64,000 nt of DNA from assembly GCA_018433245.1 (NCBI GenBank), contig JAHDRN010000001.1, forward strand, positions 124,001 through 188,000, read 5' to 3'. Origin of the DNA: Candidatus Proruminimicrobium quisquiliarum. GTDB taxonomy: Bacteria > Elusimicrobiota > Endomicrobiia > Endomicrobiales > Endomicrobiaceae. The translations under genes were made by a program, and so were the position numbers. Below are positions 25,283 through 25,728 of the stretch, one piece after another (within the stretch, counting starts at the first letter, position 1; every line of letters begins with the position of its first letter). The notes under the pieces were generated by a model. It was not told the origin of the DNA, made no database searches, and worked only from the letters and a program-made list of their open reading frames with translations.

Positions 25283-25311
25283 TTGACAAATTTTTCAAAC
25301 TTGTTTATAAT
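25283..25311 (+). promoter_or_regulatory. groESL promoter P1
   Basis: A fully consensus promoter: TTGACA at 25283-25288 and TATAAT at 25306-25311, 17 bases apart. The last T of the -10 is also the first base of the first CIRCE operator, so repressor binding would block transcription initiation. Confidence 0.85.
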
Positions 25312-25337
25312 TAGCACCCAATAATCAAGAGTGCTTA
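25311..25337 (+). promoter_or_regulatory. CIRCE operator 1 (HrcA site)
   Basis: TTAGCACCC (25311-25319), nine bases, then GAGTGCTTA (25329-25337). Compared with the known CIRCE consensus TTAGCACTC-N9-GAGTGCTAA there are two mismatches in 18 positions and the exact spacer length. HrcA binding here would repress groES-groEL until heat shock. No hrcA gene lies in the window. Confidence 0.9.
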
Positions 25338-25344
25338 AAAAGAC

Positions 25345-25373
25345 TTGACAAAAATCCGGACTTAGTGTATAAT
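25345..25373 (+). promoter_or_regulatory. groESL promoter P2
   Basis: A second fully consensus promoter: TTGACA at 25345-25350 and TATAAT at 25368-25373, again 17 bases apart, exactly 62 bases downstream of P1. It relates to the second operator as P1 does to the first. Confidence 0.85.
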
Positions 25374-25399
25374 TAGCAATCAATTGGCGCGAGCGCCAA
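25373..25399 (+). promoter_or_regulatory. CIRCE-like operator 2, diverged
   Basis: TTAGCAATC (25373-25381), nine bases, then GAGCGCCAA (25391-25399): three mismatches in 18 to the CIRCE consensus, with the exact 9-base spacer and the same one-base overlap with TATAAT as operator 1. The right arm also belongs to a perfect short palindrome ATTGGCGC-GA-GCGCCAAT (25383-25400), which could fold in the mRNA leader from P2. Confidence 0.7.
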
Positions 25400-25440
25400 T
25401 AAAAAAATTACAAAAAGTAAAAAATAGGAGGAGTCGGAAA

Positions 25441-25728
25441 ATGAAAATCAGACCGTTGGGAGACAGAATCATTGTTAAAGTTGAAGAACCTAAGGAAAAG
25501 AAAGTCGGAGGAATTATTATTCCGGACACCGTGAAAGAAAAACCACAGGAAGGCGCTGTTGTAGCGGTAGGAAAAGGGAAAGTTGACAAAGACGGAAAAG
25601 TAATTGAGATGGATGTTAAAGTAGGAGACAAAGTTTTATACGGAAAATATGCCGGAACAGAAATCAAAATAGAAAATGTTGATTATTTGATAATGTCTCA
25701 GGAAGACGTATTGGGTATACTTGAATAA
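25441..25728 (+). CDS. groES: Co-chaperonin GroES
   Basis: A 95-residue co-chaperonin that caps the GroEL cavity. Family pattern [20 protein letters not shown] begins the protein, the mobile loop region is [19 protein letters not shown], and the C-terminal part has [16 protein letters not shown]. The frame is open further upstream, but AGGAGGA at 25426-25432 and the exact GroES N-terminus place the start at ATG 25441. It is expressed from the tandem promoters and is 37 bases before groEL. Confidence 0.98.

Follow-up and report, generated by a model that had tools for sequence, protein, structure and literature searches.

Two HrcA-type promoter-operator modules very probably control the groES-groEL operon (groESL) of Candidatus Proruminimicrobium quisquiliarum, making it a class I heat-shock operon; HrcA binding and the transcription start sites are deduced here from the DNA. 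Each module combines a perfect TTGACA-N17-TATAAT promoter with a predicted CIRCE operator. The sister species retains both, and the remaining CIRCE sites of the genome likewise belong to chaperone loci.

Two promoter-operator modules precede groES-groEL

We analyzed a 64-kb stretch of the genome (the window; 64,000 nucleotides), in which the features of the groESL locus are as follows.

25283..25311, + strand: promoter P1, TTGACA-N17-TATAAT (TTGACA 25283-25288, N17, TATAAT 25306-25311), kept in the sister species
25311..25337, + strand: operator 1, predicted CIRCE, TTAGCACCC-N9-GAGTGCTTA, 2 mismatches of 18
25345..25373, + strand: promoter P2, TTGACA-N17-TATAAT (TTGACA 25345-25350, N17, TATAAT 25368-25373), kept in the sister species
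25373..25399, + strand: operator 2, predicted CIRCE, TTAGCAATC-N9-GAGCGCCAA, 3 mismatches of 18
25383..25400, + strand: inner palindrome of operator 2, ATTGGCGC-GA-GCGCCAAT, perfect; could fold into a hairpin close to the P2 transcript's 5′ end
25426..25431, + strand: groES Shine-Dalgarno AGGAGG, read off the sequence
25441..25728, + strand: groES (Cpn10), Pfam PF00166, 120 bits
25766..27400, + strand: groEL (Cpn60), Pfam PF00118, 271 bits
27430..27463, + strand: intrinsic terminator-like hairpin 3′ of groEL, 15 pairs with a T tail

The preliminary description of this locus, a pair of perfect promoters 62 bp apart from start to start, proved exact to the base. At both P1 and P2, the last T of the -10 box is indeed the first T of the CIRCE operator, and the reported N9 geometry and mismatch counts (two and three) both hold, as does the perfect palindrome within operator 2. 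Pfam matches identified the downstream genes as those of Cpn10 and Cpn60, in agreement with their earlier assignment as groES and groEL. Across both strands of the window, two perfect N17 promoters were observed against 0.03 expected. Operators 1 and 2 are the only CIRCE sites with at most three mismatches in the 64-kb window, and no such site occurred in 100 shuffles of the sequence.

Both modules are maintained in the sister species

A comparison with related genomes had been proposed for this region. The sister species (G001), the only other genome of the genus compared, retains both groESL promoter-operator modules, with both promoters, both operators, and identical 62-bp spacing; its P1 spacer comprises 18 bases rather than the 17 of the host genome (G000). 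Between the two species, 150 of 186 aligned columns upstream of groES are identical (81%), whereas only 60 of 95 groES third codon positions are (63%), which indicates that the upstream region is under constraint. The preservation of promoters, operators, and spacing despite this third-position divergence further suggests that both modules are maintained.

These results bear directly on chance resemblance within an AT-rich intergenic region, which is almost certainly not the explanation. The region is AT-rich, and its weaker promoter-like sites occur at the level of shuffled sequence; however, the shuffles yielded no CIRCE site, the expected number of perfect promoters is far below that observed, and conservation of the arrangement in G001 refutes this reading.

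HrcA and the CIRCE regulon of the genome

The whole 1.94-Mb genome contains a single hrcA gene (one PF01628 match, 190 bits), and all genomic CIRCE sites with at most three mismatches are located at chaperone loci. Beyond groESL, two sites precede hrcA-grpE and one an hsp20 operon with genes for three Hsp20-like proteins; the last is at the start of clpB, a gene identified by reading its translation. An inverted repeat near a promoter, hrcA in the genome, and chaperone targets, three features of an HrcA/CIRCE regulon, were all found for groESL. Together, the single hrcA gene and the distribution of the remaining CIRCE sites argue for ordinary HrcA/CIRCE control of this operon.

Two CIRCE sites, spaced 52 bp, flank the hrcA-grpE promoter itself (L036; G000:C31:104480-104558, minus strand). 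The upstream site merges with the -35 box (GTGCTTGACA), the downstream site covers the -10 box, and their spacing is conserved in G001 (L173).

Operator 2 and its inner palindrome

The two operators have changed at different rates. Operator 1 differs between G000 and G001 at two positions, both 9-bp arms being identical, and operator 2 at six, three of them in the arms; in G001, operator 2 carries two mismatches to the CIRCE consensus. To evaluate these sites, we scored them with a half-site profile from which both species of the host genus had been left out; this profile leans to the consensus since its sites were mostly collected under a mismatch limit. Operator 1 scored 24.8 bits, operator 2 23.7 bits, and the clpB site 23.1 bits, compared with 26.7 bits for the median collected site; the highest score among 200,000 random sequences was 6.8 bits. 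Moreover, the GAGCGC of operator 2 is found in groES sites of several family members, single-site relatives included, and its GCCAA in other CIRCE sites of the same genome. The score and these shared motifs lead us to expect that operator 2 is bound by HrcA, perhaps slightly more weakly than operator 1. The earlier suggestion that operator 2 might have lost HrcA binding is disfavoured, its score falling between those of operator 1 and the clpB site. Counting against two working modules are the lower profile score and faster change of operator 2 relative to operator 1, and the single site with which most nearby genera manage.

The inner palindrome has a counterpart at the same place in G001, ATTAGCAT-GA-GTGCTAAT. 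Relative to that stem, two A-T pairs are replaced by G-C through double changes in G000 and one U-G pair by C-G. Each of these differences makes the G000 stem the stronger, and its predicted hairpin is more stable (-8.2 vs -4.9 kcal/mol). Under simple models applied to this one species pair, the probability that five random substitutions leave every pair intact and include two or more double changes is 0.022 if all are transitions and 0.003 for any substitution. Similar inner pairing is present in G018 and G003.

For the 66-nt P2 leader, the folding energy is -9.7 kcal/mol with a z-score of only -1.7, and no Rfam family was found in it. Among 68 CIRCE sites, inner palindromes were not significantly enriched (8 sites with at least six pairs, against a null mean of 3.3 and a null maximum of 10). 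The idea that the palindrome belongs to a repeat family or a mobile element was rejected, because its exact 16-mer occurs once in the genome and its other places carry three mismatches, in numbers not much above the control count.

The hairpin first proposed for the beginning of the P2 mRNA is possible: G001 retains the stem through compensatory changes, but the associated probabilities (approximately 0.003-0.02), the nonsignificant enrichment, and the leader z-score temper the case. Hairpin-templated mutation would, in addition, leave the same compensatory pattern without any function.

Two further interpretations build on this hairpin. According to the first, HrcA binding is no longer the main role of operator 2, which has been remodelled into an mRNA-protecting 5′ hairpin, leaving operator 1 as the sole repressor site. 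The strengthened inner stem, its greater predicted stability, and the weakening of the outer CIRCE dyad in G000 are in line with such remodelling, yet we regard it as very unlikely given the profile score of operator 2 and the recurrence of GAGCGC in single-site relatives and of GCCAA at other sites of the genome, besides the modest statistics above. The second, which we consider unlikely, assigns operator 2 a dual role, as an HrcA operator in DNA and, through its right arm and spacer, as a 5′ hairpin of the P2 RNA under selection. If this were true, induced groESL mRNA would be both derepressed and stabilised. A search of the open-access literature on CIRCE and mRNA stability found nothing relevant.

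groES control regions across the phylum

We compared the sequence ahead of groES in 53 genomes: 40 have a perfect promoter, and in 33 of these 40 the last T of the promoter also belongs to a CIRCE operator. With 33 of 53 groES loci organized in this way, the overlap of -10 box and CIRCE is the usual groES form among relatives and not special to the G000 locus. Among the genera nearest by groES sequence (g11, g9, and G004), a single promoter with a single operator prevails.

In other families of the phylum, two operators recur around one groES promoter, separated by 64 bp in G102, 61 bp in G271, and 52-55 bp in several genomes of families f13 and f18. The groESL locus studied here resembles these Elusimicrobiota loci in its CIRCE-promoter-CIRCE order and in a spacing within their 52-64-bp range; unlike them, it has a consensus promoter ahead of operator 1. 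A different working unit would be a single pair of operators enclosing P2, a layout seen in many relatives, in which P1 plays a secondary part. That operator 1 of the paired loci lies just upstream of the -35 box without a consensus promoter ahead of it, and that a 52-bp operator pair precedes hrcA in the host genus, would fit this arrangement. However, P1 is perfect in G000 and G001 alike, and the AACTTGTT spacer it carries is also that of the single groES promoter in g9 and g11, so we judge a bracketing unit with a secondary P1 distinctly unlikely and retain two complete modules as the preferred reading.

Further doubled or extended sites were observed in the phylum. Paired CIRCE sites (L191-L214, L036, L167, and other pairs) are mostly spaced 52-55, 61-64, or 72 bp apart, with one at 59 bp, classes that would fit helical phasing. 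In three genomes (L016, L023, and L027 in G041, G040, and G038, respectively), a second CIRCE-like palindrome, AAAAATTAGCACTTGTAAATAACGAGTGCTAATTTTTTT in G041, lies 84-131 bp upstream of the groES CIRCE; it follows the upstream gene beside runs of A and T, lacks a consensus promoter, and could double as an intrinsic terminator. At L049 (G003), the region from 72 to about 28 bases upstream of groES (TTAGCATTCGTTAGCAATGAGTGCTAATAAACAACGAGTGCTAA) contains four overlapping HrcA-like half-sites.

Origin of the second module

The promoter spacer of groES in g9 and g11 ends in AACTTGTTA, as does that of P1 in G001, and the P1 spacer of G000, one base shorter, has the same AAACTTGTT when read by eye. 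P1 is therefore the shared, and probably the older, promoter, and P2 and operator 2 are the addition.

In two g9 species (G034 and G024; L012 and L013), the whole groES promoter-CIRCE module is present in tandem, 112 and 116 bp apart, and the copies include bases ahead of the -35 box. A test of similarity between the tandem modules outside the motifs was matched by 0 of 2,000 shuffles in these species, and such clear copies indicate that tandem duplication of this module happens in the family. The same test between P1 and P2 gave p=0.0175 in G000 and p=0.011 in G001. The earlier proposal of tandem duplication followed by divergence is thus plausible in light of the family cases, but P1-P2 similarity itself shows it weakly; P2 and operator 2 are an extra module of the genus, probably a tandem duplicate.

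Proposed working of the control region

In characterised systems, HrcA positioned over the -10 and start region of a promoter blocks polymerase, and stress lowers HrcA activity. At groESL, the housekeeping sigma factor would start transcription at the two consensus promoters, P1 and P2, and HrcA on each CIRCE, overlapping the -10 box and start region, would block polymerase. By analogy with known systems, heat or misfolded protein would lower HrcA activity and open both P1 and P2, and two consensus promoters should yield high output once derepressed. Operator 1, 62 bp or about six helical turns upstream of operator 2, would be expected to lie on the same DNA face. Since operator 1 is thereby also upstream of P2, the two operators may jointly repress P2.

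Relation to known systems and significance

The groESL locus shares with the HrcA/CIRCE-controlled groESL operons of Bacillus subtilis and lactic acid bacteria the consensus TTAGCACTC-N9-GAGTGCTAA, groESL and hrcA-grpE as targets, sigma70-type promoters, and the presence of hrcA. In Lactobacillus plantarum groESL, CIRCE begins four bases past the transcription start (PMC1676014), whereas in G000 the operator begins with the final T of the -10 box. Precedents also exist for a chaperone control region with two operators: the Lactococcus lactis dnaK promoter is overlapped by two CIRCE elements (PMC1676014), and L. plantarum hrcA has two CIRCE elements (PMC3842655). The G000 locus differs from both: it lies before groESL, and a separate consensus promoter accompanies each operator. 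Open-access literature on HrcA in Elusimicrobia yielded nothing.

Overall, the groESL arrangement is a local variant of a familiar heat-shock switch, the principle of which is known. It shows that classical HrcA/CIRCE control operates in a phylum most of whose members are uncultured, that promoter and operator overlap there with great regularity, and that one or the other is repeatedly doubled at groESL. Such loci offer useful material for comparing how chaperonin expression is tuned by the number and spacing of operators.
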